Below are positions 15,810-42,887 of a stretch of 64,000 bases of DNA, piece by piece. Source of the stretch: Microbacterium nanhaiense (GTDB lineage Bacteria; Actinomycetota; Actinomycetes; Actinomycetales; Microbacteriaceae). The notes beneath the pieces are model-generated. The model worked only from the letters and a program-made list of their open reading frames with translations, searched no databases and had not been told where the DNA came from. The DNA lies in contig NZ_BMMQ01000003.1 in assembly GCF_014646015.1 (NCBI RefSeq), positions 62,001-126,000 on the forward strand. Direction: 5' to 3'. Each line of letters opens with the position of its first letter. Position 1 is the first letter of the stretch. Position numbers and translations under genes: made by a program.

Positions 15810-17576
15810 TCATTTCACGAGCAGCCGGGTAAAGTTGTTCGAGTTGTAAGGGGCTATGGCGCAGTTGGTAGCGCGCTTCGTTCGCAATGAAGAGGTCAGG
15901 GGTTCGAATCCCCTTAGCTCCACCCCACGCACAAGGCTCGAACCCTTGCCAACGGAAACGCTGGCCGAGGTTCGGGCCTTGTTGGCGTCTGCGGCCCAGG
16001 TCAGGGCATTCGCGTTGACTTGCGGATCAAGGAGCATCTCGAAGGGCCGGTTGTGCTCGACCCGCAGCTCGTTGTCCTCGTCGATGAAGACCTTCGTGAA
16101 GAACGCCTGGTTGCACAGCCGCCGGTTGGTGTCGTCGCAGCGGGTGTAGATGTCGGCGCAGTTGGCGAGCAGGCCGAGGGCGTCGTCGAGGTGGGCGCGG
16201 GCCTCGGCGTAGTCGCCGAAGTGGGCGTCGATGCGGCGGGTCACCTGGTCGAGTTCGACGACGATGCGCTCTTGTTCGCGCTTGAGCACTGAGAGCGGGA
16301 TCGCGTCGGCGTAGTGCGCCTGCATGAGCCGGTCCTGCTCGCTTTCGAGCCGGTCGCGGTTGGTGGTGAGGCGTTCCAGCTCCTCGGTCTCGGCAGCCAT
16401 GAGCCGATCGAACTCGTGGTGGAGCATGCCCGCGAGCGCATCCTGCTGGGCGGGCGTGATCTGGACGCGGGTGTAGTAGTCCTCGACGAGCTTCTCGACG
16501 TCTTCGATGAGCATCGCCTGGCGTGTGCAGTCGGTGCGCTTGGAGTGCCGACCGGAGCATACGAAGTAGCAGTAGACGTTGCCGTGGCGGTTCTTCGCGT
16601 TGGAGACGATGAGTCGGGAGCCGCACTGACCGCAGTGGATGGTGCCTTTGAGGTAGTGGCCGTGGACTTGGGTTGCCTCGACGGCGCACTGGTGCGCGGT
16701 GAGCACGGACTGGACCTGGTACCAGACCTCGGCTGGCACGAGTGCCGGGTGGTTTCCCTTGTAGCGGGTACCCCTGTAGATGACATCGCCCTTGTAGTAC
16801 GGGTTGGTCAGGAGCCGGTGGATGGTGGATACCGCCAGAGGCTTCGCCGGCCTCTTCGGCGTGGGCAGGCTGCGCAGCCCGCGCGAGGTGAGTTCGTCGT
16901 GGAGTTGGCTGACGCTCCAGTTGCCCGAGGCGTACGCCTTGAACGCCCACTCGATCATCGGTGCTCGCTCGGGATCGAGCTCGATGGTGCGGACTTCGCG
17001 CCCGAGTTCGTCGCGCTTGCGGACGTTCAAGTAGCCGATGGGCGCGCGCCCGTTCGTGCCGCCGCCGATGGCCTTTTGGTTCATGCCCTTGGCGACCTCG
17101 GTGGCGAGGTTGCGGGAGTAGAACTCGGCGATGGTGGACATGATGCCGTGCAGCAGCATCCCGGAGGGGGTCTCGTCGATGTTCTCGGACGCGGACACGA
17201 GCATGACCCCGCACTGTTGGAGTGCGAGGTGGATGCTCACGTCGTCGGCGCGGTTGCGGGCGAGCCGGTCGACCTTGTGAACGATGCAGTACGCGACCTT
17301 GTTGGCCTTGACGTACTGGATCATCCGCATCAGCTCGGGCCGGTCGGACGACTTGGCTGAGGCTCCCGCGTCGACGAACTCCTCGACGATGGCGGCGCCG
17401 AGCTGTTCGGCCTTACGCCGGGTCGCTTCGCGCTGGGCAGGGATCGAGAAGCCTTCGTCGGTCCCGCCCTTCTCGGCCTGCTCGCGGGTGGAGACCCGCA
17501 GGTACGACACGGCGGCAGCCGCAGTCTTGGGCGGGTCGATGAGGCTGGCTGCCGGATCGTCGGCAATGGTGGTCAT
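15810..17576 (-). CDS. large serine integrase
   Basis: The N-terminal resolvase domain contains AVSYLRVSTREQ with catalytic Ser29 and VHKVDRLARNRADD. A recombinase domain follows (NGRAPIGYLNVRKR, STIHRLLTNPYYKGDVIYRG), then a zinc ribbon (IHCGQCGSRL, FVCSGRH, DCTRQ) and a coiled coil, as in phage-type large serine recombinases. It catalyses integration and, with a directionality factor, excision. The last 38 or so residues are translated from the antisense strand of the tRNA-Ala and the host DNA beyond it, so the natural C-terminus in the excised circle must differ. Confidence 0.92.
   Translation of the reverse strand: MTTIADDPAASLIDPPKTAAAAVSYLRVSTREQAEKGGTDEGFSIPAQREATRRKAEQLGAAIVEEFVDAGASAKSSDRPELMRMIQYVKANKVAYCIVHKVDRLARNRADDVSIHLALQQCGVMLVSASENIDETPSGMLLHGIMSTIAEFYSRNLATEVAKGMNQKAIGGGTNGRAPIGYLNVRKRDELGREVRTIELDPERAPMIEWAFKAYASGNWSVSQLHDELTSRGLRSLPTPKRPAKPLAVSTIHRLLTNPYYKGDVIYRGTRYKGNHPALVPAEVWYQVQSVLTAHQCAVEATQVHGHYLKGTIHCGQCGSRLIVSNAKNRHGNVYCYFVCSGRHSKRTDCTRQAMLIEDVEKLVEDYYTRVQITPAQQDALAGMLHHEFDRLMAAETEELERLTTNRDRLESEQDRLMQAHYADAIPLSVLKREQERIVVELDQVTRRIDAHFGDYAEARAHLDDALGLLANCADIYTRCDDTNRRLCNQAFFTKVFIDEDNELRVEHNRPFEMLLDPQVNANALTWAADANKARTSASVSVGKGSSLVRGVELRGFEPLTSSLRTKRATNCAIAPYNSNNFTRLLVK
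15850..15922 (+). tRNA. tRNA-Ala (anticodon CGC)
   Basis: GGGGCTA (15850-15856) pairs with TAGCTCC (15915-15921) and includes the G3-U70 wobble that identifies alanine tRNAs. The anticodon stem CTTCG/TGAAG holds the loop TTCGCAA, anticodon CGC (reads GCG). The T arm GGGGTTCGAATCCCC is intact, so the gene should still work after insertion of the element. Confidence 0.95.
15850..15925. other. putative attachment site at the host–element junction
   Basis: Host-type genes end at 15800 and the integrase gene begins on the opposite strand right after the tRNA-Ala, with the tRNA itself as boundary. This is the usual picture for tRNA-targeted integration. The partner site would be a direct repeat of part of this tRNA at the far end, which is not in the window, so the exact core cannot be named. 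Confidence 0.6.
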
Positions 17577-21415: not shown

Positions 21416-22896
21416 CGGTGGCCTCCTGCTGCGCGGCTGCTGGTGTCGAATAGCGCGAGTTCGTCGGGGTGGAGTTGGTGCTGGCAGACGAAGCTCCTGG
21501 CCTTGATCCGCCACAGGCCTTGGCCGACGCCGAGGTTCGGCAAGAGCTGCTGCTCGGTGCCGGTCAGGCCGAGCGCGGTCGCGGTCGGCCCGAGCTGGTC
21601 GGACTCCTGCCGGTACACGATCCGCGTCTCTGCATTCGCCAGCAGCGAGTTCGCCAGGGAGCGCATGGCGGAGCCTTGGTCGCCCACGTTGTCGAGGTCG
21701 GTGAGCTTGTGGAAGATCAGCATGTTCGCGATCCCGTAGTGCCTGGCGAGCCGCCAGTGCGCATCCATCCGCCGCAACAAGGCAGGGTGGGACATGAGCC
21801 GCCATGCCTCGTCGTAGATCACCCACCGCTGCCCGCCGTTCGGGTCGAGCAGCGCGGACTCCATCCATGCCGACGAGCACGTCATCAACACCGAGATGAG
21901 CGTCGAGTTCTCGGTGACCCGGGAGAGGTCGAGCGAGATCATCGGCAACGACGGATCGAACGCGACCGTCGAAGGCCCGTCGAACAGCCCGGCCAGGTCA
22001 CCGGCGACGAGACGGCGTAGCGCGTGGCCGACGAGCCTGCCGTCCTCGGCCAACCGGCCGTCGGCATCCGCGCTCGGGGCAAGGATGCGGTCAACGACCA
22101 TCGGCAGGATCGGCACGTCGTTCTCCCGCACGGTCTGGGTCAGGGCGATGTCGATCGCGGTGTGCTCCAACGGCGACAACCCGCGCGCGAGCACGGTCTC
22201 GGCCAGTGCGCGGATCAGATCACGCCGTCGCGCGGCGACGGTTGAGGCCCACTGCTCATCCGACAGGCCGCTGGGCCGGCGGCCTTCATCGAGGGGGTTC
22301 AGGCGCGTGTTGAGGCCGTGCCCGAGGACGATGGCTCTGCCGCCGACGGCGTTGGCGACGGCAGTGTGTTCCCCTTTCGGGTCGCCGGGAACGTACACGC
22401 GCCTTCCGAACGGCAGCGACCGTGTGTAGAGAGACTTGGCCAGCGATGACTTGCCGGAACCAACGATCCCGGCCAGCACCACGTTGGGTGCGGTGATGAT
22501 CCCGCTTGCGTAGAGCACCCACGGGTCGTAGACGAAACTCCCGCCCGAGTAGAGGTCTTGGCCGACGAATACACCGTCGGCACCGAGACCGCCCTCGGCG
22601 ACGAATGGGTAGGCGCCCGCCAGCGTCGCCGACGTGTCCTGATGCCGCGTCAGATGGAACCGGCCCGGAGTGCGCAGCCGCGCCGCGCCAGGCTCGCCGG
22701 CCTTTGGCAGGTAGATAGTTGCGCGGCGCTCGGCCCGCTCCTCCTCGGCCTTTGCCTTCGCGGCGGCGATCGCGGTCCTTCGCTGCTCGGTGTGGAGCCT
22801 GGCCTCGGCCTTGCGGCGCTGCTTGCGGAGCTTGCGCCGCTCCTTCGACGGTGCCACCAATACAGCGGTGTGCAGCCGCGCGCGATCCTCGGTCAC
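21412..22896 (-). CDS. VirB4-type ATPase of the transfer apparatus
   Basis: VirB4/TraC ATPases power assembly of the conjugation channel. The 494-aa protein has a basic coiled-coil N-terminus (KERRKLRKQRRKAEARL), Walker A GIVGSGKSSLAKS (residues 143-155), Walker B WVIYDEAWRLMS and the downstream FHKLTDLDNVGDQGS segment typical of VirB4-like proteins. It is shorter than proteobacterial VirB4 (about 800 aa) because the N-terminal half is a separate protein, probably the SCO6880-like one. GTG 22896 overlaps the upstream TGA; a longer open frame upstream reads another gene out of frame. Confidence 0.9.
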   Translation of the reverse strand: MTEDRARLHTAVLVAPSKERRKLRKQRRKAEARLHTEQRRTAIAAAKAKAEEERAERRATIYLPKAGEPGAARLRTPGRFHLTRHQDTSATLAGAYPFVAEGGLGADGVFVGQDLYSGGSFVYDPWVLYASGIITAPNVVLAGIVGSGKSSLAKSLYTRSLPFGRRVYVPGDPKGEHTAVANAVGGRAIVLGHGLNTRLNPLDEGRRPSGLSDEQWASTVAARRRDLIRALAETVLARGLSPLEHTAIDIALTQTVRENDVPILPMVVDRILAPSADADGRLAEDGRLVGHALRRLVAGDLAGLFDGPSTVAFDPSLPMISLDLSRVTENSTLISVLMTCSSAWMESALLDPNGGQRWVIYDEAWRLMSHPALLRRMDAHWRLARHYGIANMLIFHKLTDLDNVGDQGSAMRSLANSLLANAETRIVYRQESDQLGPTATALGLTGTEQQLLPNLGVGQGLWRIKARSFVCQHQLHPDELALFDTSSRAAGGHR

Positions 22897-23723
22897 CGCA
22901 CCAGCCCCCGCGACTGCTTGACCGCTGTGATCTTGGCTGGCTCGAACCACGACCCATCTCGCTTCGGGGACGGCAGGTCGGCTCGCTTCGGAGCGCCCGG
23001 CGACGAGTACGACACCAGCAGCTCCGGCCCCGGCTGCACCGGAACCGGTCCGACCTGTTCGGCATCCGAGCGCTCTGCCTCCGGCTCTGTGTAGCGGCGC
23101 AGCAGCGAGACATGGCCGACGTGCGGGTTGACGACCAGCGCGTAGTCGCCCGAGAGCGCCACCCGGTCGTTCGTGCCCTGGCCGGGCTCGTCGTAGACGT
23201 ACCCGTTCTCCAGCGCAGCCTGTGTGGTCTCGTCGCCGTAGTCCCACTGGGCGAGGAAGTCCACCGCATCGACATGCCCCAGCTCGCCGAGGATGCGCAA
23301 CGGCCGGTCGGCCTCCTCGTCTTGGAGGAAGACCACGCTGACCCACCGCGACGGCGCGGCCTCCTCGACAGTCGGCTCGGGGTGCCAGGCGATCCGCCCG
23401 GCGGCGATGAACCCTTCCGCGAGCCGGTCGTACGCCCGGTCGACGAGGTTCGCGGCCTGACGCAGTTCCTCCGCAGCAGCGAGCGCGTCCCGCACTCCTG
23501 CCTCGTGGCTCCCGTCATCATTGAAGGCGTGCGCGGCCTTGCGCTCGTGAACATCAGCGATCTGGTCGAGCGCCTGCCGCAGCGAGCGCATCCCCGAAGA
23601 CAGATCACCGATCACCCCGTACATCTCGGCGGGCTGATCGAACCCCCGGCTCGCGTGCGCCAACCCGCGCAACGCCTCGGATGCCTCAGCGGCATCGGCA
23701 GTCGAATCGAAGAACGTGGGCAT
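22893..23723 (-). CDS. conserved element protein of unknown function, 276 aa
   Basis: The N-terminal half is helical (ADAAEASEALRGLAHASRGF, MRSLRQALDQIADVHERKAA, ELRQAANLVDRAYDRLAEGF). The C-terminal half is mixed, with ALVVNPHVGHVSLLRRY. No membrane segment or catalytic motif is visible. Its stop overlaps the VirB4-like start. It is the last gene of this half of the operon, and its presumed upstream neighbour, the SCO6880-like gene, is now 25 kb away. GAGGAGG precedes the ATG. Confidence 0.7.
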   Translation of the reverse strand: MPTFFDSTADAAEASEALRGLAHASRGFDQPAEMYGVIGDLSSGMRSLRQALDQIADVHERKAAHAFNDDGSHEAGVRDALAAAEELRQAANLVDRAYDRLAEGFIAAGRIAWHPEPTVEEAAPSRWVSVVFLQDEEADRPLRILGELGHVDAVDFLAQWDYGDETTQAALENGYVYDEPGQGTNDRVALSGDYALVVNPHVGHVSLLRRYTEPEAERSDAEQVGPVPVQPGPELLVSYSSPGAPKRADLPSPKRDGSWFEPAKITAVKQSRGLVR

Positions 23724-23858: not shown

Positions 23859-24836
23859 ATGGACGACCCGCGCGACGAGTCCGGTAGCGACGATGCCGTT
23901 GGCAGACAGACCTCGGTAGATGGTCAGATCAGGTCCGACGCACTTGAACTCGCAGCGTCCACGACCCTCGTCGAGGTGACGCCAGGCGTCGCAGTCGTAT
24001 TCGGCGAAGTCCCCGACGGTCTTGAACTCATCAGCCTTGACATGGTGCCGTCCTTCGACCGCGCTCAGCTCTCCACCGCTCTCGGTTCCTTCGGCAACGC
24101 CGGCACGATCGTCGGGAACGTCGCGGAAGCTGTGTCGAGCGCGCAAGGCCTCTTCCGCGTCAACGATGCGACGCTGTCTCTGTTGAAGAGCGGCGGCCAG
24201 ATGGCCGCGAAGGACGGTGCAAAGCTCGGAGCGATCTTCAAGAACGGTGAACTGGTCGCGCAGGCACGCTTCATCCCCGCGTCGATGACGGCCGCCACGG
24301 CGATCGCAGCCATCGGCCCGGCTGTCGCCATGATCGCGCTCCAGATGCAGCTCGGTGAGATTTCGGGCCTCGTCCGCTCCAACATTCAGCTCACGACGCA
24401 GACGCTCAAGGCCATCCGGAACGAGCAATGGGCAGAGCTTGAAGGGTTGGCGGAGTCCGTGGATGAGGCGGTCAAGGAGACCCGTGAACTCGACGCCATC
24501 ACCGATTCTGTGTGGGAACCCATCGCGCCCAGTCGAGACGGCATTCGCAAGCAACTGAAGCTGTACCGCAAGAACGTGGCGGGCCACATCCAGGAGATCG
24601 GGAAACTGGACGGACGTCCCCGCCGCCAGTACCTCGAATCCAACGCCGAGGCAATCGTCTTCGACACCTACGCGCTTCTCAGCTCGCTGAAGACCTACGC
24701 AGAGTATCAGGCTGCCGCGCAGCCCTCGCCAGAACCCGAGGTGCCAACGACGAAAGCGAAGCTCAACTCTTCGACCGGATCGCTCGGAACACCCCCGCCG
24801 AGATTGACGAGTCACTCTCCGAAATCCGGGCACTAA
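23859..24836 (+). CDS. first part of a split two-frame protein, membrane-interacting
   Basis: This plus-strand gene is divergent from the transfer operon and starts with ATG after GAGAAGGAG. The 325-aa product has an acidic N-terminus, a helical region, a hydrophobic stretch (MTAATAIAAIGPAVAMIALQ, near residue 150) and then regular helices (GLVRSNIQLTTQTLKAIRNE, KQLKLYRKNVAGHIQEI, NAEAIVFDTYALLSSLKTY). After about position 24740 the protein becomes Ser/Pro-rich and codon usage turns atypical, while frame +2 continues with normal helical protein. I therefore think this gene and the next were one gene, split by a single-base loss. Function unknown. Confidence 0.7.
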   Translation: MDDPRDESGSDDAVGRQTSVDGQIRSDALELAASTTLVEVTPGVAVVFGEVPDGLELISLDMVPSFDRAQLSTALGSFGNAGTIVGNVAEAVSSAQGLFRVNDATLSLLKSGGQMAAKDGAKLGAIFKNGELVAQARFIPASMTAATAIAAIGPAVAMIALQMQLGEISGLVRSNIQLTTQTLKAIRNEQWAELEGLAESVDEAVKETRELDAITDSVWEPIAPSRDGIRKQLKLYRKNVAGHIQEIGKLDGRPRRQYLESNAEAIVFDTYALLSSLKTYAEYQAAAQPSPEPEVPTTKAKLNSSTGSLGTPPPRLTSHSPKSGH

Positions 24837-24847
24837 CAGAATCGCTT

Positions 24848-25549
24848 GTGCGTGAGTTGCGGATCATCGCCGAGCTTCCTGGCAGAGCGACCGTGCCGCT
24901 CACGAAGAAGCGGAAAGACGCGAAGGCGTCTCAACTCACATGCAAGCAACTCATCGAAGCCATCGGACCCCTGGCCGACATGCTCCAGCCCGCAGTCGCC
25001 GTGCCAGCAGCACCGGAGACCGTGTGCGCGCCTGACGGGCTTGAGCTCGATTCGTACCTGCGCATCCTTCGGTGGTTCCTTGAGGACGGCGAGACGCTTC
25101 GCAGCGTGGCGTTCCCGTACGAAGTGGGGACCCACAACTTCGCCGGAGTCGTGCCAGCGATTCTCGCTAAACGGGTTGATGCGACATGGGATGCGCTTGC
25201 GCCAGGAAGAGGAAGTGCGATCGTTGAGAAGTTCGCGTCGAGCACTTTCGTGGCTGTCACTGACCGACGGATCGTCACGGCCAATCCAGGGAATCTTCTA
25301 CGACGAGGCGAACTGGGCCCGATCTACTCCCTGGACGAAGTGCGCAACGTGCGCGGTCGATCAGCCCGCGGAGTGGGTGTCCGGCCCACCATCGACGTCG
25401 CCACAGACGAGCGCGATCTGCACTGGATGTTCCCCGGTGTCGCGGCCCACGAGGACATAGACAGCCTGGCTGCTGTCCTCTCCGAGGCGAGCCCCCAGGC
25501 AGTCCCGGCTCCGGCAACGCTTGAACAGCTCCCAGCAGCGGACTCCTAG
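24848..25549 (+). CDS. second part of the split protein, PH-like domain
   Basis: The frame carries credible protein from about 24743 (DESEAQLFDRIARNTPAEID), but no start codon occurs before GTG 24848, which lacks a Shine-Dalgarno site. The C-terminal half (EKFASSTFVAVTDRRIVTAN, GPIYSLDEVRNVRG, IDVATDERDLHWMFPG) has the strand-rich rhythm and VAVTDRR phrase of bacterial PH-like domains, suggesting membrane or protein docking. Joined to the upstream frame the protein would be about 560 aa. As it stands, this piece is either unexpressed or needs a frameshift. Confidence 0.6.
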   Translation: MRELRIIAELPGRATVPLTKKRKDAKASQLTCKQLIEAIGPLADMLQPAVAVPAAPETVCAPDGLELDSYLRILRWFLEDGETLRSVAFPYEVGTHNFAGVVPAILAKRVDATWDALAPGRGSAIVEKFASSTFVAVTDRRIVTANPGNLLRRGELGPIYSLDEVRNVRGRSARGVGVRPTIDVATDERDLHWMFPGVAAHEDIDSLAAVLSEASPQAVPAPATLEQLPAADS

Positions 25550-25560
25550 AGATTTTGCCG

Positions 25561-26388
25561 ATGACAAGCTTGAACGAACAAGAAGGTTTCAGGCCGACAG
25601 GTCAACGATCAAAGGTCGGTCGATGCACGTTGTGCGGGGCCAGGGCAAGGCTCACCAAGGCGCACGTACCGCCGAAGGCAGCGTTCAACAACCGGTCCTT
25701 CTCGTGGGGCGGTGCGACTGCTGATAGCCAGCTCGTTTATGGGAGGCCGCGCCTTGGCGGCGCCAATCTATACGCACACTGTGAGCCCTGCCGAGTGGCC
25801 ACGTCACCTTGGGACGACGAGTACATTCGATGGGCATATTCATTCGCGAACGTCCTGGTCAATTCACCATTGAAGGGAGAGCGAACGCAGATAGTGGGCA
25901 CCTTGAGTGGCGTGCGCCCCGGTAGATTCATACGCTCCGCGCTCGCGGGGATGACCGCGCTGGCACCCAAGTTGCTCGACTCGCATCCTGACCTCGTCCG
26001 GGCAGTTCGGCAGGGCACACCATCTTCGCCGACAGATGACCTCCGTTTCTTGGTGGCTGTTGCGCCTGACGGAGCAGCAGCCACCGTGGAAGGTGCGCAC
26101 GAAGCTTTGGCGCTCAAGATGTCGTTCGACGATGAAGACGGCTCCGGATGGAAGACGGAGACCGCCCCGACGATATCTGCTGTTATCCATTTCCCCCCAT
26201 TCAGCCTGCTGCTGGCTGATCGCCAGCTCGCGGCATCCTTGCCCCATCTCGACTGCACGGACTGGTTGAATCTCGGTGTCGATGACGAGGCCAACGTTCA
26301 GATCGTTCTCCCTGTGGTTGACCTGCCGAAGACCCCGAACGCGCCTGTTCCCGTCTCGATGCTTCGGTTCGCTGAGGCTCGTGCGTGA
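25561..26388 (+). CDS. HNH-like zinc protein, 275 aa
   Basis: The N-terminal 80 residues contain CTLCGARARLTKAHVPPKA and, later, LYAHCEPCRVATSPWDDEYI. This is a CxxC pair, a conserved His-Pro, then HCxxC, the arrangement of HNH/McrA-type nucleases. The remaining 200 residues are mixed and unrecognised. It begins 11 nt after the PH-like frame (ATG 25561; TTG 25555 is an alternative) and is therefore in the same transcript. Together they look like a cargo module, possibly defensive; the nuclease call rests on metal-site spacing only. Confidence 0.6.
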   Translation: MTSLNEQEGFRPTGQRSKVGRCTLCGARARLTKAHVPPKAAFNNRSFSWGGATADSQLVYGRPRLGGANLYAHCEPCRVATSPWDDEYIRWAYSFANVLVNSPLKGERTQIVGTLSGVRPGRFIRSALAGMTALAPKLLDSHPDLVRAVRQGTPSSPTDDLRFLVAVAPDGAAATVEGAHEALALKMSFDDEDGSGWKTETAPTISAVIHFPPFSLLLADRQLAASLPHLDCTDWLNLGVDDEANVQIVLPVVDLPKTPNAPVPVSMLRFAEARA

Positions 26389-26444
26389 GTGCCGTGCGAA
26401 GGTGGAGAACTGCGCAGCGGGTCAACTCGCGTTCGCGACTTTGG

Positions 26445-27374
26445 CTAGGGCGTGTCTCCCAATAGGCGTTGCCAGGTGAGGATCGCGCAGAGGGTGACGC
26501 CGGCACGGTAGGTGATCGCGAGCTTGTCGTAGCGTGTCGCGATGCCGCGCCACTGCTTGGCGAGGGCGAAGAACCGCTCGACGACGTTGCGGCCCTTGTA
26601 GGCGGCGGCGTCGAGCCCGGGTGGCCTGCCACCCTTGCTGCCGCGCCGTTTCCGGGCGGCGGCCTGGTCGCGCTTGTCGGGGATGACGGCCTTGATCCCG
26701 CGGCGGCGCAGTTCGGTGCGGATCACGCCGGTCGCGTAGGCGCGGTCCGCGATCACCGCCTCGGGCCGGGTGCGCGGCCTGCCTCTCCCGTGCCGGGGGA
26801 CGTGGATCTGAGCGAGCACCTCGGCGAGCATGGCGCCGTCGTTACGCTGCCCGCCGGTGACGATCATCGCCAACGGTCGGCCGTGCCCGTCGACGGCCTG
26901 ATGGATCTTCGTCGTCAGCCCGCCGCGGGAGCGGCCGATGCCGTGACCGGGCGGCTCAATCTCGTGCCAGGGCAGATTCTTGTGATTCGATCCCGCCCCC
27001 TGTGTCCTGCTCCGGGCGGGTGGTGTTCGTCGCGTGCTGATGCGCACGCGCGATCGTCGCGTCCACCGACACCGCCCAGTCGATCTTCCCCGCCGCGTCC
27101 GCCTCCGCGAGAATCCGCGTCAGCACACGGTCCCAGGTGCCGTCCCCGCATAACGGCGGTGCCGCTTCCACACCGTCTGCCACGGCCCGAACTCATCGCG
27201 AGGCAGATCACGCCACGGGATCCCCGTGCGAAACCGGTACGCGATGCCCTCCACGACCCGACGGTTGTCGCCGAACGGGTGACCGCGACGCCCCTCGTTC
27301 GACGGCAGCAACGGCTCGATCCGCTCCCACTGCTCATCCGTGAATACCCGATACCGCGAACCCGTCGACCTCAC
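26445..27374 (-). pseudogene. IS5-family transposase with two frame changes
   Basis: The N-terminal part (YRVFTDEQWERIEPLLPS, FRTGIPWRDLPRDEFGPWQT) lies in one frame and the DD part (IDWAVSVDATIARAHQH) in a second. The rest (PPGHGIGRSRGGLTTKIHQ, then VIADRAYA and NVVERFFALAKQWR with the catalytic Glu) is back in the first. One shift at the G run near 27150 could be the programmed -1 shift of this group, but returning at the G run near 27010 needs a second, so the gene is probably broken. The stop falls in the terminal repeat (LLGDTP). Confidence 0.85.
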
Positions 27375-27421
27375 CCGACCAGACTGCCGCGAGCCTCACT
27401 CTCCATATGGGAGACACGCCC
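26448..27421 (-). mobile_element. IS5-family insertion sequence, about 974 bp
   Basis: Terminal inverted repeats GGGCGTGTCTCCCA (26448-26461) and TGGGAGACACGCCC (27408-27421) bound the transposase. Both ends are flanked by TA within CTA...TAG, consistent with a short target duplication. The right end cuts an IS3-type transposase gene. A lone copy of the same terminal repeat lies at 48874. Confidence 0.85.
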
Positions 27422-27424
27422 TAG

Positions 27425-27972
27425 TCAACCGGAGATTCGTCGCGGATGGGCCGCGCAAGCTCTGGGTGTGCGACGTGACCTACGTCGCTACCTGGTCTGG
27501 GTTCGCGTATGTCGCGTTCGTCACCGACGTGTACTCGCGCAGGATCGTGGGCTGGAACGTTGCTGCGACGCTGAAGTCTGAGGTCCTGCCGATGCAGGCG
27601 CTCGATATGGCGGCCTGGCAGTCAGGCGGCCGGCTCGATGGGCTCATCCATCACGCCGATCACGGGTCGAACTACACCGCCATGGTCTACACGGATCGCA
27701 TCGCGGAACTCGGAGCGGTGCCCTCGACCGGAACTGTCGGCGACAGTTTCGAGAACGCGATGGCTGAGGCGGTCAACAACCTCTACAAGACCGAGCTCAT
27801 TCGTCAGCAGGGGCCGTGGCGGACGGTTGAGCAGGTCGAGCTCGCGACGCTCGAATATGTGTGGTGGTGGAACCACGAACGCCTCCACGGAGAACTCGAC
27901 ATGCGCACACCAACCGAGGTCGAGCAGGCGTACTACGCTGGAACCGAGACGCTTCTGTCACTGACCGGCTGA
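27425..27972 (+). pseudogene. 3' part of an IS3-family orfB transposase
   Basis: The retained part shows the rve/DDE core: KLWVCDVTYVATWSGFAYVA (first Asp), LIHHADHGSNYTAMVYTDRI (second Asp) and DSFENAMAEAVNNLYKTELI (Glu), then the common ending WWNHERLHGELDMRTPTEVE. The N-terminal half and orfA are missing because the IS5-type element inserted here; any longer frame starts with IS5 sequence. The IS3 right end runs to about 28010 (CCGGTCGGAAC...CCAATTCA). It is related to the remnant at 35961. Confidence 0.85.
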
Positions 27973-28010
27973 CAGGAAAACCGGTCGGAACTGAAACCAG
28001 GCCAATTCAA

Positions 28011-28315
28011 TCGCGTCGGCAGGGCTGATCCTCGCCAGCTCTGACCCGCGTTCGGTGCTCTCAGTGATCGAACTCTCACGTGCTGCCTACCGCAAGATGA
28101 AACAGAACCTGTGGTGGGCGGCGGGGTACAACCTGATTTCGGTGCCGCTTGCCGCCGGTGTGCTCGCCCGCGTCGGGTTCGGGCTGCCGATGTCGGTCGG
28201 AGCGATTCTGATGTCGCTGTCGACGATCGTCGTGTCGCTGAATGCCCAGCTCTTGCGCCGCATCGATCTCAGCTCAGAAGCCAGCACTCGCGCCGTGCTC
28301 GAACGCACGAACTGA
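28011..28315 (+). pseudogene. C-terminal fragment of a CopB-type copper ATPase
   Basis: The frame reads [20 protein letters not shown] followed by [20 protein letters not shown], nearly identical to the end of the complete copB at 40346-42475 ([20 protein letters not shown]). Only the last two membrane helices remain; everything upstream was replaced by the IS3 end at 28010. It cannot work as a transporter. It shows that an older copB copy, on the other strand, was destroyed here. Confidence 0.85.
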
Positions 28316-28339
28316 ACTCACGCAGCCCAGGATCAGCAC

Positions 28340-28651
28340 ATGTCATCAACCGCTGAATCGCATGCGTCGCACCACGGGTGTATCGGCGATATGAAGCGCT
28401 ACCTGCAGCGCATGAAACGAATCGAAGGTTTGGCCCGGGGCATCGCGAACATGATCGACGAAGAGCAGTACTGTATCCACATTCTGACCCAGGTCAGTGC
28501 GCTCACCCGCTCGCTGCAGGGGGTGGCGACGGGGCTGCTCGATGACCACCTGAAGCACTGTGTGCTCGATGCCGCCAAGCTTAGCGACGAGGCCGCCCAC
28601 GAGAAGATTCAGGAGTCCATTGCCGCGGTCAACCGGCTGATCCGATCGTGA
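28340..28651 (+). CDS. CsoR-family metal-sensing repressor
   Basis: The 103-aa protein has the CsoR ligand set at Cys45 (EEQYCIHILTQ), His70 and Cys74 (LLDDHLKHCV), which in CsoR hold Cu(I) and release DNA. The N-terminus is longer than usual and has a His cluster (SHASHHGC). It sits directly downstream of the truncated copB, and convergent with a P-type ATPase gene. Its operator may be elsewhere, since its own upstream region shows no clear G/C-tract palindrome. Confidence 0.88.
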   Translation: MSSTAESHASHHGCIGDMKRYLQRMKRIEGLARGIANMIDEEQYCIHILTQVSALTRSLQGVATGLLDDHLKHCVLDAAKLSDEAAHEKIQESIAAVNRLIRS

Positions 28652-28673
28652 CTGTGTGAGTCGGTCTCGCGGG

Positions 28674-30551
28674 TTAGCCTACCGGCATTTCCCGCCGAGC
28701 AGGGCCCTCGCGCCGCGCACCCCGGTGCGCTCGGAGCGCGCGGAGCGCCGACAGAATGGCCACAAGGTCAACAATCTCTTGCAGCAGCGCTCCCACCACC
28801 GCCGGCAAATAGCCGAATGCGGCGACGAGCATCAAACCGACTGAGATGATGATGCCCATCCAGATCGACTGCAGGGCGATCTGCACCGTGCGCCGCGAGA
28901 CATAGGCCACATCTGCCACTCGCGCGATGTCGTTCGAGGTGATCACCGCCGCTGCTGACTCGCTCGCGACCGTTGCACCCCTGCCCGCCATCGCAACACC
29001 GACGTCGGCGGCCGCCAGCACCGGGGCATCATTGATCCCATCGCCGACCATGAGTACGGGTCTCGGCCGCATCGCCTGCACAATCCGCACCTTGGTCTGG
29101 GGAGTGGTCTCAGCGTGCACCGTCTGAATGTCGACCGCGTGTGCGACAGACTCCGCGGTCGACGTGATATCACCGGTCACCATCGCGATCTCGGCTACGC
29201 CTGCTCGGCGAAGACGGGACACCGTCTCTGCAGACTGCTCACGAATCGGGTCGGACAAGATGATCACTCCGGCGAGCTCGTCACCGACCGATACGTAGAC
29301 GGCCGTCTCCCCAGCTGAGAGTACGGGTCGATCGATCGGCCCGGTCACCTCTTCGATAAATGAGGGCTTGCCCACTCGCACCGAGGTGCCGTCTGCCAGG
29401 GAGGCGAGGACACCGTTTGTTGCCACCTCGTCGGCCGTCACCACTTCGGGAAGCTCAAGTTGCTGTGTGCGTGCCGATGCCACGATCGGATCGGCGAACA
29501 CGTGCACGGAGTACTGCTCGGCGGCGGCCGCGAGCTGCAGCGTCTCGTCTACGGTGCGAGCAGCAGGGTGAATCTCGACGACGTCGGCTTTACCTTCGGT
29601 CAAGGTGCCGGTCTTGTCGAATGCGACTGCACGGACCCGGGCGAGCACCTCTAACACGCCACCGTCTTTGATGATGACGTTGAGCTTTGCCGCGGAACTC
29701 ATCCCGCCCATGAACGCGACCGGGGTGGCGATGAGCAGCGGGCACGGCGTCGCCACGACGAGCACCTCGGCAAATCGCACCGGGTCCCCGCTGAGAAACC
29801 ACGCGAAGCCCGCAATCAGCAATGACACAATGGTGAACGGCACCGCATAACGGTCGGCGAGTCGCACCATCGGTGCCCGGGAGTCCACGGCCTCCTCGAC
29901 CAACCGTACGATCGAGGCGTAGTTCGAATCGGCTGCCACCTTCTGCGCGCGCATCGTGAAGCTCGTCGTGCTGTTGACCGTTCCAGAAAGCAGTGGGTCG
30001 CCCGCGCGGTAGTTCACCGGGATCGGTTCACCGGTCACGGATGATTCATCAATCGTCGCGTGATCCGATAGGAGCACCCCGTCGACGGGGAGGATCTCTG
30101 AGGAGCGCACCAGCAGTTCGTCGCCGACTTTCACCTCTTCGATCGCGATGCGTTCGACCTCACCTGTTACCTGGTGAATTCGACCCGCGAATGCTGGGGC
30201 TCGGCTCAACAGTTGGTCGAGTTCTCGGCTCGCGCGGCGAGCGGCGAGGTCTTCGAGCGCTTCCCCTCCGGTGAGCATCAACGCGATGATGAGCCCCGCG
30301 ACATATTCCTGTACGGCGAGTGTCGCGATCATGGCGATGACCGCAAGAATGTCGAGCCCCCAATGCCCACGCATCAGATCTTTGAACATGTCGATCGCGG
30401 TGATCACGATCACGATACCGAGCACCAAGTATGCGGTGACCCCGAGAGCCATCTCTGCGCCGGTCAGCCAGAACATAACCCCGGTCGCCAAACCGACGAG
30501 CACGAACATCATGAGCTTGCGGTTGCGAAGAAATTCCACCGTCGATGACAT
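28674..30551 (-). CDS. heavy-metal P-type ATPase, CPL type
   Basis: About 625 aa with the P1B-ATPase plan: membrane helices, actuator (DESSVTGEPIPVN), the ion-path motif VVATPCPLLIATPV (CPL rather than CPC), phosphorylation site AFDKTGTLTEG and hinge VGDGINDAPVLAAADVGVAM. No N-terminal metal-binding domain is present. The usual SEHPLA is replaced by YSVHVFADPIV, a variation I associate with this CPL subgroup. Substrate cannot be read; Zn/Cd or Cu export is likely. GTG 30599 is an alternative start. It lies downstream of the Crp/Fnr gene. Confidence 0.88.
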   Translation of the reverse strand: MSSTVEFLRNRKLMMFVLVGLATGVMFWLTGAEMALGVTAYLVLGIVIVITAIDMFKDLMRGHWGLDILAVIAMIATLAVQEYVAGLIIALMLTGGEALEDLAARRASRELDQLLSRAPAFAGRIHQVTGEVERIAIEEVKVGDELLVRSSEILPVDGVLLSDHATIDESSVTGEPIPVNYRAGDPLLSGTVNSTTSFTMRAQKVAADSNYASIVRLVEEAVDSRAPMVRLADRYAVPFTIVSLLIAGFAWFLSGDPVRFAEVLVVATPCPLLIATPVAFMGGMSSAAKLNVIIKDGGVLEVLARVRAVAFDKTGTLTEGKADVVEIHPAARTVDETLQLAAAAEQYSVHVFADPIVASARTQQLELPEVVTADEVATNGVLASLADGTSVRVGKPSFIEEVTGPIDRPVLSAGETAVYVSVGDELAGVIILSDPIREQSAETVSRLRRAGVAEIAMVTGDITSTAESVAHAVDIQTVHAETTPQTKVRIVQAMRPRPVLMVGDGINDAPVLAAADVGVAMAGRGATVASESAAAVITSNDIARVADVAYVSRRTVQIALQSIWMGIIISVGLMLVAAFGYLPAVVGALLQEIVDLVAILSALRALRAHRGARREGPARREMPVG

Positions 30552-30609
30552 TGCGTGTGACGCTTCCAAGGTACGTGGGGCGATGGTCTGGGCTGGCACG
30601 GTGCTGTTC

Positions 30610-31338
30610 TCAGTCTCTCTTCGTGAGGGTTGAGAGTGCGGTGAGCGCGGTCACATCAGTGATCGTGATCCGCCCCTGTTCCTGTTGTGAGATCACCCCG
30701 GTGTCGGTGAGTTTGCGAAGTTGCCGACTGAGGGACTCTGGTGTCGTGGACAGGAGCGAAGCGATGTCCTTCTTTGCGAGCGGCAGCGTCACGTCGATGG
30801 CTCCTCGCGGCCCTGGCGTCGCAGGGAGCGAGAGCAGGTAATCGGCGAGACGAGAGCTCACGTTTCCCGAGATGACAGAAGCCAGCCGCGCCTCAATATC
30901 ATCCAAGCGCTGACTCACTCCTTGCAGCATGCGCAGCCCGATGCTCGGATGCTTCTCGACGAGACGCCCGAGATCGGCATGACGGAACACGCACAGTTCG
31001 GTATGCACGAGCGCTTCTGCTGCGTGATCCGGTCTCGTGCCGGTGAGAAACGCGGATTCTCCGATGAAGTCGCCCGGACCGAGGACCCGGATCACCTGCT
31101 CGTGCCCAGCCGCACTTGTGCGAGCGATCTTCACCTGACCGGTGTGCACCACCATCAACTGCGACATATCCGAGCCTGCTGTATACGCCTGCTCGACAGC
31201 GTCTAATCGGACTGTACGTGCAAATCCCGCAACTTCCACTTGCTGCGCATGTGTGAGCCCTTGAAACAGTGGTACACGGGCCACGCAGAGATCATTTGCT
31301 GGATCAGCATCCACATCGGTCGAAACAGCCAACGGCAT
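30610..31338 (-). CDS. Crp/Fnr-family transcriptional regulator
   Basis: A cyclic-nucleotide-binding-like domain (LFQGLTHAQQVEVAGFARTV, GQVKIARTSAAGHEQVIRVL, GPGDFIGESAFLTG) is followed by a winged helix with PLAKKDIASLLSTTPESLSR and a wing ending. There is no Cys cluster for an Fe-S sensor; one Cys (DLCVARVP) lies near the N-terminus. GGGAAGG stands just before the ATG at 31338, so that start is chosen over one 36 bases upstream. It likely controls neighbouring metal or redox genes; an FNR-type box is seen at 35860. Confidence 0.88.
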   Translation of the reverse strand: MPLAVSTDVDADPANDLCVARVPLFQGLTHAQQVEVAGFARTVRLDAVEQAYTAGSDMSQLMVVHTGQVKIARTSAAGHEQVIRVLGPGDFIGESAFLTGTRPDHAAEALVHTELCVFRHADLGRLVEKHPSIGLRMLQGVSQRLDDIEARLASVISGNVSSRLADYLLSLPATPGPRGAIDVTLPLAKKDIASLLSTTPESLSRQLRKLTDTGVISQQEQGRITITDVTALTALSTLTKRD

Positions 31339-31386
31339 CCTTCCCTTCCCTTCTAGTATGGCGACTCGTGGCACAACACACGCGCT

Positions 31387-32055
31387 TCAGCTGAAGCCAG
31401 GGGTGGCGCGTGCAGTGATGTACGCGTGTGGCGTCCGCGGGTTCGAGCGCTGCCCGATCACCTCGAACCCGGCGTAGGTGAGGGCTTCGACCATTTTGTT
31501 CATCGGCCACCGGTATGCGGCGGCGATCGGATGGTCGAATGCCTCCCGCCGCGGCCCCACGAAAAAGGACATCAGCAGCGATCCGCCGTCACCCAGCCGA
31601 GTGCGCAGTGTTACGAGCGCGTGTAAGAGCTCTTCTGAGCTCATGTGAATGGTCGAATACCAGGCGAGGATCCCGCCCCAGCGGGTCTCGCAACGGGCGA
31701 GATCTTCGATGGAATCGTGATGGAACACAACCGCGGGATGTCTGGCTCGGGCAATCGTGATGAGGCGATCCGATGGCTCGAGCCCTTCCACCGTGTGTCC
31801 GAGGCGTGCGAGGTGACCGGTCCAACGCCCGGTACCCGCGCCGACATCAAGAATGGGGCCATCGACTGCCGCGGCCCACGGCTCGATGACCGCACGGTCA
31901 GGGTCATCCGGTGAGATCTCGGCGCCGAGAATGCCCTCGATATCAACCTCAGGCGACCCGTATGCATCGGCCACCCGGTTTATTGAGGCCACAGGATCAG
32001 ACGTCCGTACTGCTGTGAATACGGCGTCCGTCGGTGCCTCAGGCCGCTGGGTCAT
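31387..32055 (-). CDS. SAM-dependent methyltransferase
   Basis: The class I motif I is clear (GPILDVGAGTGRWTGHLARL), followed by motif II/post-I (GLEPSDRLITIARARHP) and a motif IV region (GILAWYSTIHM). The 222-aa length suits a small-molecule or free-standing methyltransferase; the substrate is unknown. Its ATG overlaps the oxidoreductase stop (ATGA), so the two are co-translated, which ties it to the redox/metal cluster rather than to rRNA modification. Confidence 0.85.
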   Translation of the reverse strand: MTQRPEAPTDAVFTAVRTSDPVASINRVADAYGSPEVDIEGILGAEISPDDPDRAVIEPWAAAVDGPILDVGAGTGRWTGHLARLGHTVEGLEPSDRLITIARARHPAVVFHHDSIEDLARCETRWGGILAWYSTIHMSSEELLHALVTLRTRLGDGGSLLMSFFVGPRREAFDHPIAAAYRWPMNKMVEALTYAGFEVIGQRSNPRTPHAYITARATPGFS

Positions 32056-32957
32056 GGTTCGATGATCACTTTGCCGGCAGTGTGCCCGGCCTCCACCATG
32101 GCGACGGCCTCCGCAGCCCGATCGAGACTGTACCGGTCCGTCACCTGCGGGTCGACGAGACCGTACTGGGCGACGCCGGTGACTTTCTCGAGCCCTTCAC
32201 GCGTGCGCACCACCGCTACGCCACCGAGTTGCTGCACGGTGGTCGGGTCTGCGGTACTGATGATGACGCTCGGGTCTTTGGCGACGACCGCGAGATCACG
32301 AAGCGCCTGCCCACCGACCAGGTCGATGAGCACATCAACACCCTCCGGCGCGATGGCACGCACCCGGCCAGCCGCACCCTCCCCGGAGGCAACGAACGTC
32401 GCACCGGTCGACTCCACCAGTTCCTGCTTCGCTGCACTGGCCACACCGATGACCGTGAACTTGTGCACATTGCCGATCTGCGCCGCCATCAGCCCGACCC
32501 CACCTCCGGCGCCAAGAATCAGCATCGTCTGACCAGGTTCCAGCTCGATCTGATGCGTCACGTCATACGCAGTCGCCCCTGCGACAGGCAGTGCTGCAGC
32601 GTCAGCAAAGGAAAGCTCTTCGGGCTTCTGGACGGTTTGTGCCGCATCCAACACCGTGTGCTTCGCGAACGTTCCCTGTCCTTTGGCCGCGAGGCCGAGC
32701 ACCATGTCACCGACAGCGAAGTTCTCGACCTCTGCGCCTACGGCGGTGACGACACCGGAGGCCTCTCGGCCCATCGGTGCGGGAAGCGGCCAGTGGGAGC
32801 CCATCTGCCCCGCACGGATCTTCCAGTCAGCAGGGTTCACCCCGGCCGCTTTCACTTCGATCGCGAGCTCTCCAGGCCCAGGCGCCGGAGCGGTGCGTTC
32901 AACGAGTTCCTGCGTCTCGGGGCCGCCATAGGCGGCGAAGACCAGCGCTTTCGACAT
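32052..32957 (-). CDS. NADP-dependent zinc-free alcohol dehydrogenase/quinone oxidoreductase
   Basis: Medium-chain dehydrogenase fold: an N-terminal GroES-like part (AYGGPETQELVERTAPAPGP, AGVNPADWKIRAGQ, MGREASGVVTAVG) and a Rossmann domain with LILGAGGGVGLMAAQI. It lacks the catalytic and structural zinc cysteines, so it resembles QorA-type NADPH:quinone oxidoreductases that detoxify quinones or aldehydes. ATG 32957 follows AGGAGAAG; a start 24 bases upstream is possible. It is the first gene of a unit with the methyltransferase. Confidence 0.88.
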   Translation of the reverse strand: MSKALVFAAYGGPETQELVERTAPAPGPGELAIEVKAAGVNPADWKIRAGQMGSHWPLPAPMGREASGVVTAVGAEVENFAVGDMVLGLAAKGQGTFAKHTVLDAAQTVQKPEELSFADAAALPVAGATAYDVTHQIELEPGQTMLILGAGGGVGLMAAQIGNVHKFTVIGVASAAKQELVESTGATFVASGEGAAGRVRAIAPEGVDVLIDLVGGQALRDLAVVAKDPSVIISTADPTTVQQLGGVAVVRTREGLEKVTGVAQYGLVDPQVTDRYSLDRAAEAVAMVEAGHTAGKVIIEP

Positions 32958-32992
32958 TATTGACTTCTCCTCATTCTCCATGTGAGTGACAC

Positions 32993-33424
32993 TTACGTGG
33001 TTGCCTGTGGCGGAGCGTCTTCACCAGAAGCCTCTGCCGCATCAGCGAGTTCCTTCGTGGCATACTCCGCGTCAATTGCGTGCTCCGGAGGTGAATAGAC
33101 GGTGTAGAGCACCAAAGACTCATCGCCAGTGTTGCGGAAGTTGTGGCGAGTACCGGCCGGGACAGCGCACAGGTCGCCAGCATCAACGGTGTGCGTCTCG
33201 CCGTCAAGGTCGGCCTCTCCGCTGCCCGACACAAAACTCAGCAACTGGTCGGTGGTGTCATGCACCTCGTCGCCGATCTCCCCGCCCACCGGAATCGTCA
33301 TCGCAACGAGTTGGGAATGCTTTCCCGTCCAGAGCACCTGACGAAAATTCGTGTTTGCTTTCGCGACCTCGTCGATGATGAAGTGCGTCGCCTTCTCGCC
33401 GACGCTGAACTGGTTCTCACTCAT
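32993..33424 (-). CDS. cupin-domain protein
   Basis: A single cupin barrel: motif 1-like GGEIGDEVHDTTDQLLSFVSG and motif 2-like LCAVPAGTRHNFRNTGD. The metal-ligand His of motif 1 (EVHD) and of motif 2 (TRHNF) are present. The 143-aa single-domain form may bind a metal or a small ligand, or act as an isomerase or oxygenase; the reaction is unknown. It lies between a P-type ATPase and the oxidoreductase, on the same strand with short gaps. Confidence 0.85.
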   Translation of the reverse strand: MSENQFSVGEKATHFIIDEVAKANTNFRQVLWTGKHSQLVAMTIPVGGEIGDEVHDTTDQLLSFVSGSGEADLDGETHTVDAGDLCAVPAGTRHNFRNTGDESLVLYTVYSPPEHAIDAEYATKELADAAEASGEDAPPQATT

Positions 33425-33439
33425 GTGTGTGGTCCTTTC

Positions 33440-35479
33440 TCAAGATGGAAGTTCGGATGAACTCTGGGCCGTGGCTGGTTCGACCGGGCGGCCTGTTTCA
33501 TGTGCGGCTCGGGCGCGTTCACTCCTCGACAACGCAGTGGCTCCTTGGGTGTTGCGCAGCAGGCGCATCGCGTTGAGGATTACGATGAGCACCGATCCCT
33601 CGTGCACGAGCATGCCGATAGCCATCGTGACACCCCCTGCGAAGACCCCGACGAGCAGCACGACAACGGTGATGAGCGCGATCCAGATGTTCTGGCGCAT
33701 GACGTTCACGGTGCGTTTGGCGAGGCCGATTGCTTCGGGCAGTTTCAAGAGGTTGTCGCCCATCAGGGCAATGTCTGCCGTCTCCACGGCCACCGCTGAG
33801 CCCGCTGCACCCATGGCAACACCAATGTCGGCGGTCGCGAGGGCCGGGGCGTCGTTCACGCCGTCGCCCACCATCGCGACCGTGTGCCCCTCGCGCTGCA
33901 ACCGCGCGACAGCGTCGAGCTTGTCCTCGGGTAGCAACGAAGCATGGATCTCATCGATACCGACCGCCTCACCGATGGCTTCGGCGACAAGGCGCGTATC
34001 TCCGGTGAGCATCACCACCTTTTGCACCCCGCTAGCGTGCAAGCGCCTGATCATCTCGGGGGCATCCTCGCGGATCGTATCTGCGACACCGATTACGCCA
34101 AGCACGCTCTCATCGACCGCGACAATCATGGGGGTCTTGCCTGCCGCTGCCAGTTTGTTCGCAGCCACAGCCGCCCCCGCGTCGTTCACGATCCCGTACT
34201 GTTCGAGCAGCGGCACGTTACCGATGAGTACCCGCTTGCCGTGAGCGTCGGCCACGATCCCCTTGCCCACGACCGGTGTGACCGATCCCGGAAGGCCCTC
34301 GGGGGCCACTCCTTCTTCTCGTGCGGTGTCGAGGATCGGGCGGGCAAGTGGGTGCTCGGACCCTGCTTCTGCTGCGGCGGCCCAGCGAAGCACCTCGCGC
34401 CGATCCGCTTCAGGATTGAGCACAACGATGTCGGTGAGTACCGGGCGGCCCTCGGTGAGAGTCCCCGTCTTATCGACTGCGACGGCCGAGATCTTGGCCG
34501 AGGTTTCGAGGTACTCGCCGCCCTTGATGAGAATCCCGTTGCGGGCCGAGCGGCCGATTCCCGCTACGATCGCCACGGGAATCGAGATGACGAGCGCGCC
34601 CGGGCAACCGATCACGAGCAACGTGAGGCCGAGCACTACGTCACCAGAGATGAGGCCCGCCGCAAGCGCGAGTACCATCACCGCGGGCGTATACCACTTC
34701 GAGAATCGGTCGATGAATGCCTGCGTTTTCGCTTTCGCATCCTGCGCTTCTTCGACACGGTGAATGATGCGCGCGAGCGTCGTGTCGGCTCCGATGCCGG
34801 TCGCCATGACCTGTAGGAATCCGCCCCGCGAGATCGTGCCCGCAAACACGTGATCTGACTTCGTCTTTTCGACAGGGATCGACTCACCCGTGATCGATGC
34901 CTCGTCGATCGCTCCGGTGCCTGACACGACCTGCCCGTCGACGGGAACTTTCGCTCCGTTCTTTACGAGCACGATCTCGCCCATGCGCACCTGATGTGCG
35001 GCGATCTCGACCTGCTCACCGTCGCGCATCACGACTGCAACGTCGGGCGCCACCGCGACCAACTCAGCGAGCGCTGCACGGGTCTTGTTCATCGTGCCGG
35101 CTTCGAGTGCGTGACCGATCGCGAAGAGGAACGTCACGGCGGCAGCTTCCCAGAAGTTGCCGATAAGTGTCGCGCCGATCGCTGCAATCGATACGAGCAG
35201 GTCGATACTGATGAACTTTACGAGCAGTGCCCGGACGGCCTTCACGACGATTCCGTACCCCGCGACAATTGCTGCGGCGAGCATGAACGCGTTCGCAAGG
35301 GTAAACACATGACCAGAACCGTGGGCGTGTTCGCCAGCGTCGATCCACCATTGCGGACCGACCGTGACATTCCAGCTGCCGCCGAAGAGCTTTTCGACGC
35401 CGAACGACACGAGAATGAGGAGGCCCGAGACAACGGGAATGAACCAGTTGCCATACCGCCACTTACGGAACGCGTTCAC
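33440..35479 (-). CDS. heavy-metal P-type ATPase, CPG type
   Basis: A 679-aa P1B-like ATPase: N-terminal helices with a short His-rich loop (GEHAHGSGHV), actuator IDEASITGESIPVEKTKSD, ion-path motif LVIGCPGALVISIPVAIV (CPG), phosphorylation site AVDKTGTLTEGRP, SEHPLARPIL and VGDGVNDAPALATADIGVAM. All catalytic motifs are intact, so it should pump. The CPG motif replaces the second Cys of CPC and points to an unusual substrate. A heavy-metal domain protein lies 51 nt upstream on the same strand and may deliver the ion. Confidence 0.9.
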   Translation of the reverse strand: MNAFRKWRYGNWFIPVVSGLLILVSFGVEKLFGGSWNVTVGPQWWIDAGEHAHGSGHVFTLANAFMLAAAIVAGYGIVVKAVRALLVKFISIDLLVSIAAIGATLIGNFWEAAAVTFLFAIGHALEAGTMNKTRAALAELVAVAPDVAVVMRDGEQVEIAAHQVRMGEIVLVKNGAKVPVDGQVVSGTGAIDEASITGESIPVEKTKSDHVFAGTISRGGFLQVMATGIGADTTLARIIHRVEEAQDAKAKTQAFIDRFSKWYTPAVMVLALAAGLISGDVVLGLTLLVIGCPGALVISIPVAIVAGIGRSARNGILIKGGEYLETSAKISAVAVDKTGTLTEGRPVLTDIVVLNPEADRREVLRWAAAAEAGSEHPLARPILDTAREEGVAPEGLPGSVTPVVGKGIVADAHGKRVLIGNVPLLEQYGIVNDAGAAVAANKLAAAGKTPMIVAVDESVLGVIGVADTIREDAPEMIRRLHASGVQKVVMLTGDTRLVAEAIGEAVGIDEIHASLLPEDKLDAVARLQREGHTVAMVGDGVNDAPALATADIGVAMGAAGSAVAVETADIALMGDNLLKLPEAIGLAKRTVNVMRQNIWIALITVVVLLVGVFAGGVTMAIGMLVHEGSVLIVILNAMRLLRNTQGATALSRSERARAAHETGRPVEPATAQSSSELPS

Positions 35480-35530
35480 GAATGTGCCGCCTTTCGAATT
35501 GGTGAACTTAGTGCGTTAGGAGCCGTTTGG

Positions 35531-35767: not shown

Positions 35768-35859
35768 GATGAGTCCTTTCGCTTCACCCCGAAACGGGGA
35801 TCGACCAGGAGGTTCCTGGCCTTTACGACCCAGACTATTGTGTTGACAGAGCCTCAGCC

Positions 35860-35873
35860 TTGACCTAGATCAA
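35860..35873. promoter_or_regulatory. possible Crp/Fnr-type binding site
   Basis: TTGACCTAGATCAA is a near-perfect match to the TTGAT-N4-ATCAA dyad of Fnr-type regulators, about 95 bp upstream of the HMA gene. A Crp/Fnr-family gene lies at 30610-31338 in the same cluster. Promoter elements around it are not certain. Confidence 0.45.
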
Positions 35874-42855: not shown

Positions 42856-42887
42856 GGTGAGTTCCTCCCAAGTAGTTTGACGAGTGG

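Follow-up and report, generated by a model that had tools for sequence, protein, structure and literature searches.

A frameshifted gene with a PH-like end and an HNH-like neighbour: candidate defence cargo of a conjugative element in Microbacterium nanhaiense

PH-like protein ends, HNH-like proteins and defence genes carried as cargo on integrative and conjugative elements (ICEs) are known kinds of parts. The closest described families to the locus studied here are the GmrSD/DUF262 type IV restriction proteins (PF03235, PF07510), the HNH_5 family (PF14279) and the bPH_3 family (PF14470). In this study, we analysed a 64,000-nt stretch of the Microbacterium nanhaiense genome (contig NZ_BMMQ01000003.1, positions 62,001 to 126,000), called the window below, whose own numbering is used throughout. 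An ICE in the window carries two adjacent plus-strand genes: AB, a long gene broken by a frameshift, whose product has a predicted PH-like C-terminus, and C, which encodes an HNH-like zinc protein. The defence genes found beside AB in other genomes and an apparent joint exchange of the end of AB with C between elements suggested that AB is a defence-associated protein acting jointly with an exchangeable neighbouring effector, here C, a reading to which we assign a probability of roughly 40%.

The AB gene and the HNH-like gene C

The two genes comprise the following features:
23859..24836 (+): AB, 5' open reading frame with the conserved start, the hydrophobic stretch and a probably helical part; homology stops at about 24713 and the last codons are out of frame
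24714..24736 (+): frameshift stretch, where the window is one base shorter than seven aligned relatives
24737..25549 (+): AB, 3' part in the next frame, holding the bPH_3-aligned stretch (about 25241-25489)
25561..26388 (+): C, HNH-like zinc protein of 275 aa from the ATG; a TTG at 25555 is also a possible start

The whole AB gene occupies 23859-25549 (+), with a net one-base shift between 24714 and 24736, so that the jump of frame placed near 24740 by a preliminary description of this DNA is now mapped against relatives. Six of the seven aligned relatives (G227/L029, L016, L018, L019, L020 and L023) carry an unbroken AB of 563 aa, in good agreement with the roughly 560 aa first proposed, and share 92-97% identity with the window in the first part of the protein and 85-93% in the second; in the seventh, G020, a more distant relative (75% and 65%, respectively), the frame is likewise intact. 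Among 37 AB loci, 30 showed a single frame over at least 430 profile positions, three were split over frames (the window, L092 and L102) and four were partial, so the two halves are not always separate genes.

The ratio of nonsynonymous to synonymous substitution rates (dN/dS) in pairs involving the window was 0.06-0.10 for the first part of AB, 0.12-0.17 for the second and 0.11-0.29 for C. Pairs of intact genes gave 0.05-0.22 and 0.13-0.15 for the two AB parts, and the window values lie within or near these ranges. These ratios indicate that AB and C are under purifying selection, and because they are low in both parts of AB, the frameshift is either recent or a sequence error. The window copy of AB is probably inactive through recent mutation, unless the shift is such an error. 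An error of sequencing or assembly, with AB intact in the strain, is possible though short of even odds: beyond the low dN/dS of both parts, no stop codon interrupts either part and the draft assembly consists of 25 contigs, while the shift site lies outside any long homopolymer and bases near it also differ from the relatives. A programmed frameshift was rejected, as close relatives are without any shift.

AB has a conserved start with the pattern LVE..PG.AVVFG in a 27-row alignment. The hydrophobic segment proposed earlier was recovered at about residues 143-161, with a best 19-residue Kyte-Doolittle mean of 1.9-2.05 in the closest relatives; over the 27 members the best window scored 1.3-2.05 and fell at this position in 20 and elsewhere in 7. 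The secondary structure of a low-confidence model gives a hint, and only that, of a probably long helical middle. At the C-terminus, residues 462-544 of the intact form aligned to bPH_3 with an hhalign probability of 91.5% over 79 columns, compared with 0.1, 0.1 and 1.1% for three other AB segments against the same comparison set, which consisted of seven bPH_3 matches from other genomes, three of them above the Pfam cut-off. This profile similarity argues for the PH-like C-terminus that had been proposed. The Pfam bPH_3 model itself matched 1 of 27 members (E 0.0086), and the rest of AB gave scattered weak matches only, such as Apolipoprotein in one member (E 0.002). One modest hydrophobic stretch and a PH-like end may point to a membrane role, but they are insufficient as proof of membrane binding, and the "membrane-docking" label of the preliminary description went too far in this respect.

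The AB family is without a clear model in Pfam, NCBIfam or PADLOC. Window AB had no significant match in any of the three; among the 27 members, PADLOC gave one ZorA match (E 8e-5), one match to a second ZorA model (0.032) and one to Csm2 (0.016). For the window's own AB and C proteins, PADLOC-DB 2.0.0 returned a single match, REase_II at E 0.035, which places neither in a known system. The AB profile found two matches among PDB sequences, the better at E 0.076 only, and the viral contigs searched held no relatives of AB or C. In the one open-access library searched, none of the listed titles and abstract openings mentioned an AB-like protein or an AB placed after GmrSD, and no paper there joined a bacterial PH domain with antiphage, or DUF262 with a PH domain and phage.

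The AB stop ends at 25549 and the C ATG lies at 25561, leaving the 11-nt gap noted earlier. Residues C22, C25, H35, N43, C74 and C77 are invariant in 17 aligned C relatives, within the motifs CxxCG, HxPP, N and CxxC, and we take them to be the HNH zinc and motif positions. The third HNH motif residue is not conserved among the relatives. HNH_5 matched 3 of the 17 (best E 0.00061), and window C itself gave no HNH_5 match at E 1. The C structure model reached a pLDDT of 73.9; a comparison with VIA returned one entry, with a Z of 2.4 and an rmsd of 2.1 over 33 aligned residues. The structure matches listed included no HNH entry, and the C profile had zero matches to PDB sequences. C is fairly named HNH-like, and its motifs suggest a putative nuclease.

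Cargo slots of the element and exchange between elements

The window is part of a 449-kb contig in a 3.23-Mb draft genome. AB and C stand as two plus-strand genes between minus-strand backbone genes at 22893-23723 and 48887-50356, within the following transfer cluster:
15810..17576 (-): large serine recombinase (integrase), PF00239, PF07508, PF13408
19089..20867 (-): VirD4/TraG-type coupling protein, PF12696, PF02534
21412..22713 (-): VirB4-like transfer ATPase, named by eye; weak AAA_10 match, E 0.0036
22893..23723 (-): 276-aa ICE backbone gene, divergent neighbour of AB and left border of the cargo slot; no Pfam family
48887..50356 (-): 489-aa backbone gene of the transfer cluster, right border of the slot in insertion-free relatives

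A TrwC relaxase lies on the same contig, 8.4 kb beyond the window end. Together, the serine recombinase, coupling protein, VirB4-like ATPase and relaxase mark an integrative and conjugative element, as the preliminary description had supposed when it called AB and C ICE cargo. Between 0.6 and 7.3 kb beyond the window end, and ahead of the relaxase, the contig holds a methylase fragment, a ResIII/T5orf172 protein and a GmrSD gene, which bears out the defence-like company proposed for the locus. These genes and the relaxase together span 0.6-12 kb beyond the window end (contig C3 of G000, L111:595-12046), where the ICE seems to continue with additional restriction genes. The start of this GmrSD protein closely resembles that of the GmrSD in a cargo slot of locus L087. 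As a look for attachment sites, short words at the integrase end were compared once with the right side of the element, and the matches were of 14-18 bases only. The same cluster is present in records from Micropruina, Herbiconiux, Leucobacter, Actinotalea and Arthrobacter.

The profiles of C and AB were each run over the other's loci. Of the 37 AB loci, 7 also held C, and of the 24 C loci, 7 also held AB; these are the same seven (the window, L029, L016, L018, L019, L020 and L023), and these have an identical backbone order as far as the stretches reach, save for an insertion in the window. Because AB and C are joint only in these seven loci, all of one ICE lineage, they are not an obligate pair and are separable, and the suggestion of a constant HNH-like neighbour did not hold outside this lineage. 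No difference was found between L018 (a Herbiconiux metagenome-assembled genome, MAG) and L023 (Arthrobacter) in a comparison of 8,000 bases, and L019 (Leucobacter) is nearly identical to L020 (Actinotalea) through C, so the seven loci amount to about five distinct sequences; recent transfer between genera, or contamination in the case of the MAG, may explain these likenesses. L026 and L039 have the same C protein as each other.

Backbone genes were present in 9 of the 37 AB loci, namely the seven with C, L087 and the remnant L086; the other 28 had none of the five backbone genes within the stretch covered. Among the 17 loci with C only, backbone genes were found in L017 and L021. AB stands alone in the window-type slot of L087, where a GmrSD gene occupies the place between the VirD4-like and VirB4-like genes, and C occupies that latter place in L017 and L021, without AB. 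These arrangements indicate at least two cargo slots in the transfer cluster. Relative to the transfer genes, AB and C are encoded on the opposite strand and the GmrSD of L087 on the same one.

One feature of this slot points to a link between AB and C:
25088..26441 (+): block shared with L029 at 98%, with both flanks more divergent; it comprises the C-terminal segment of AB together with C and is a likely exchange cassette

L029 matched L019 at 99-100% from the VirB4-like gene through AB residue 400, and at 84.0% over the remainder of AB (residue 401 onwards), 70.0% in C and 92.4% in the next backbone gene. Compared with the window, L029 showed 91.2% and 82.6% in two earlier AB parts, 98.4% from AB residue 401, 98.0% in C and 93.0% after it. 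This pattern of identity suggests that the C-terminal segment of AB and C were probably exchanged together between two ICEs. The left crossover falls between window 25087 and about 25111, near AB residues 411-418, and the right crossover beyond C but ahead of the backbone gene that follows. C is 95-100% alike within an allele class; between classes it is 67-78% alike in most 250-base windows, compared with about 90% for the surrounding backbone. The exchange hints at a partnership of AB with C and would fit a functional unit, though proximity alone could explain it. L019 and L020 were almost identical through C and then, from about 6870, dropped to about 92% in the next backbone gene, which marks a second breakpoint at the same slot border. 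A polymorphic toxin with its immunity protein, a model prompted by the joint exchange of the AB end and C, was set aside, given that the exchanged AB end stays homologous and AB is mostly without C.

Genes beside AB and C

The surroundings of AB were counted in 27 AB genomes for GmrSD_N (PF03235) and, as a comparison, for N6_Mtase (PF02384), a common defence-related family. Genome sizes were rounded in this test, and fragmented assemblies can hide neighbours. Genomes with weak AB matches were excluded (G028, G040, G080, G128, G132, G158, G190, G739 and G836), and the window's genome was kept along with G1386, G1354, G1142, G1159 and G424, in which AB is weak or partial. There were 36 GmrSD_N matches, of which 6, in 6 of the 27 genomes, fell within 3 kb of AB, where 0.086 were expected, and 7 within 10 kb, against an expectation of 0.23. 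N6_Mtase gave 52 matches; 1 lay within 3 kb, where 0.125 were expected, and 5 lay within 10 kb, against an expectation of 0.34. The two sets of counts indicate that AB tends to defence surroundings and that its short-range link with GmrSD exceeds general clustering.

With starts as chosen, the AB start overlaps the stop of an upstream GmrSD gene by 11 nt in L032 and by 1 nt in L098, and that of an upstream ZacC gene by 4 nt in L101. GmrSD and McrBC lie directly upstream of AB in L090 (210 nt) and L095 (211 nt), respectively, the latter with BrxHI also nearby; SIR2 lies upstream in L092 (125 nt to the profile match), where AB itself is split, and an ADP-ribosylglycohydrolase in L093 (255 nt). 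DrmD and DrmA are near AB in L094, and PglX in L063, where AB is partial. On a Rhodococcus plasmid (L042:5020-7668), the AB frame is open upstream into a full ADP-ribosylglycohydrolase domain, the two being separate neighbours in L093. As the neighbours sent to family searches were picked by eye, this list is not a rate, and only the GmrSD and N6_Mtase counts are statistics. Gene calls came from a rough GC-frame method with starts set by rule or eye, and a missing neighbour means little in the short loci L088, L103 and L039-L041 (3-6 kb).

Defence genes also stand beside C. It precedes GajA and GajB (Gabija) in L022, faces Avs3b and Avs3a in L026 and faces a NACHT protein in L028; of ten C neighbours compared with PADLOC, four were Gaj or Avs proteins, one was RecD-like and five, including the NACHT protein, had no match. 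Near C and Gabija, L022:1087-2193 encodes a distinct protein that begins with CAFCG...LTREHVF and, judged by eye, is also HNH-like. Beside Avs3 at L026:5100-5906, a 269-aa gene without a Pfam or PADLOC match overlaps the start of C and is possibly another partner of it.

Downstream of C, the window differs from its relatives by one large feature:
26449..48886 (.): 22.4-kb insertion between C and the 489-aa gene, with inverted ends and CTAG on both sides

The ends of the insertion are inverted (GGCGTGTCTCCCAAT), and L029 has the uninterrupted insertion site. A DDE transposase gene lies at its left end and it contains three E1-E2 ATPases, which gives it the appearance of a composite transposon with genes of the metal-resistance type.

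Alternative readings and known systems

In the reading we favour, AB would sit at the membrane or at a partner surface through its PH-like end, would react to the entry of foreign DNA, and would recruit or release an effector encoded beside it, which would cut nucleic acid of the phage or rival element. The effector would differ by lineage, being a GmrSD-type restriction protein in several loci and C in this ICE lineage. We infer the membrane location, the sensing, the contact of AB with C, the nuclease activity and the anti-phage effect. Several results weigh against such a scheme. AB occurs without C in 30 of 37 loci and C without AB in 17 of 24; in L029, the closest relative, the situation is the opposite of that in the window, with an intact AB and a frameshift in C following residue 213, so one partner is broken in 2 of the 7 joint loci unless the sequence is in error. 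Only a single exchange event was deduced, with a left edge about 45-50 residues ahead of the bPH_3-aligned stretch. Judged by eye, the neighbours of AB are ordinary in many loci (L031, L059, L060 and L091 among them), a carboxyl transferase adjoins AB in L086, and further neighbours scanned in L096 and L097 had no Pfam family. GmrSD_C (PF07510) was found, at the cut-offs used, in only one of six GmrSD-type proteins scanned (that of L032), which makes "nuclease partner" a weaker label than the name suggests. The AB structure model, built on a few close relatives, has a mean pLDDT of 34.5. For C, the close group has R directly behind its second CxxC and the distant group N, so that any catalysis is putative, and a Foldseek search of its model against PDB gave 292 matches at E up to 10, none of them at 0.001. 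The preliminary description was right in its observations and partly so in its interpretation: its nuclease has the motif residues in C and no fold match, and the constant HNH-like partner and the membrane docking are the parts that were not sustained.

AB and C could also be unrelated single-gene cargoes in one slot, each acting alone or with host partners, which we hold possible, if somewhat below an even chance. Beyond the loci that have one gene without the other, related ICEs carry C alone in the other slot (L017, L021) and AB alone in its own (L087); set against this are the common strand and 11-nt spacing of the two genes and the joint exchange of the AB C-terminal segment with C. More doubtful is a role of AB in assisting or regulating restriction-type systems (GmrSD, McrBC, Zac) rather than as a defence effector, with C having separately replaced GmrSD here. 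The overlaps of AB starts with GmrSD and ZacC ends would suit it, as would the transfer cluster of L087, whose two slots are occupied by GmrSD and AB, and the presence of a GmrSD gene on the contig of the window, about 44 kb away from AB; many AB loci, however, showed no restriction gene among those of their neighbours that were scanned, and 21 of 27 genomes lack GmrSD_N within 3 kb of AB. A service to the element itself, in transfer control or the exclusion of rival elements, appears improbable: AB and C do lie between backbone transfer genes in all seven joint loci, and AB likewise in L087, but they are on the strand opposite to those genes, the unit is absent from the same place in L021, and 28 of 37 AB loci are without any of the five backbone genes in the stretch covered. 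Returning to joint action of AB with an effector, we consider its widest form rather unlikely, namely that AB founds an undescribed actinobacterial defence family in which a PH-tipped platform couples to exchangeable effectors (GmrSD, ZacC neighbours, C), the AB C-terminal segment and its effector forming a swappable cassette that is traded between ICEs like specificity modules and held in fixed cargo slots of the transfer cluster.

In actinobacteria, AB is a family of long proteins beside restriction and other defence genes, and if it does partner several effectors, it would reveal a way for restriction-type proteins to acquire a membrane or sensing arm. The comparison of ICEs, in turn, illustrates that cargo slots within a conjugation cluster hold and exchange defence-type genes. 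Compared with known families, AB aligns to a small bPH_3 set at its C-terminus only. C shares the CxxC, H, N, CxxC layout of HNH_5, with a weak match in 3 of 17 relatives, and differs in that window C is unmatched at E 1 and has R where its distant relatives have N. AB matches none of the models of Zac, McrBC, DISARM, BREX, Gabija and Avs (PADLOC/Pfam names), and genes of these systems adjoin AB or C in single loci. The matches listed for AB and C include no GmrSD_N or GmrSD_C; the type IV restriction proteins are neighbours of AB, within 3 kb in 6 of 27 genomes, and these AB/GmrSD loci offer a directly testable pair.

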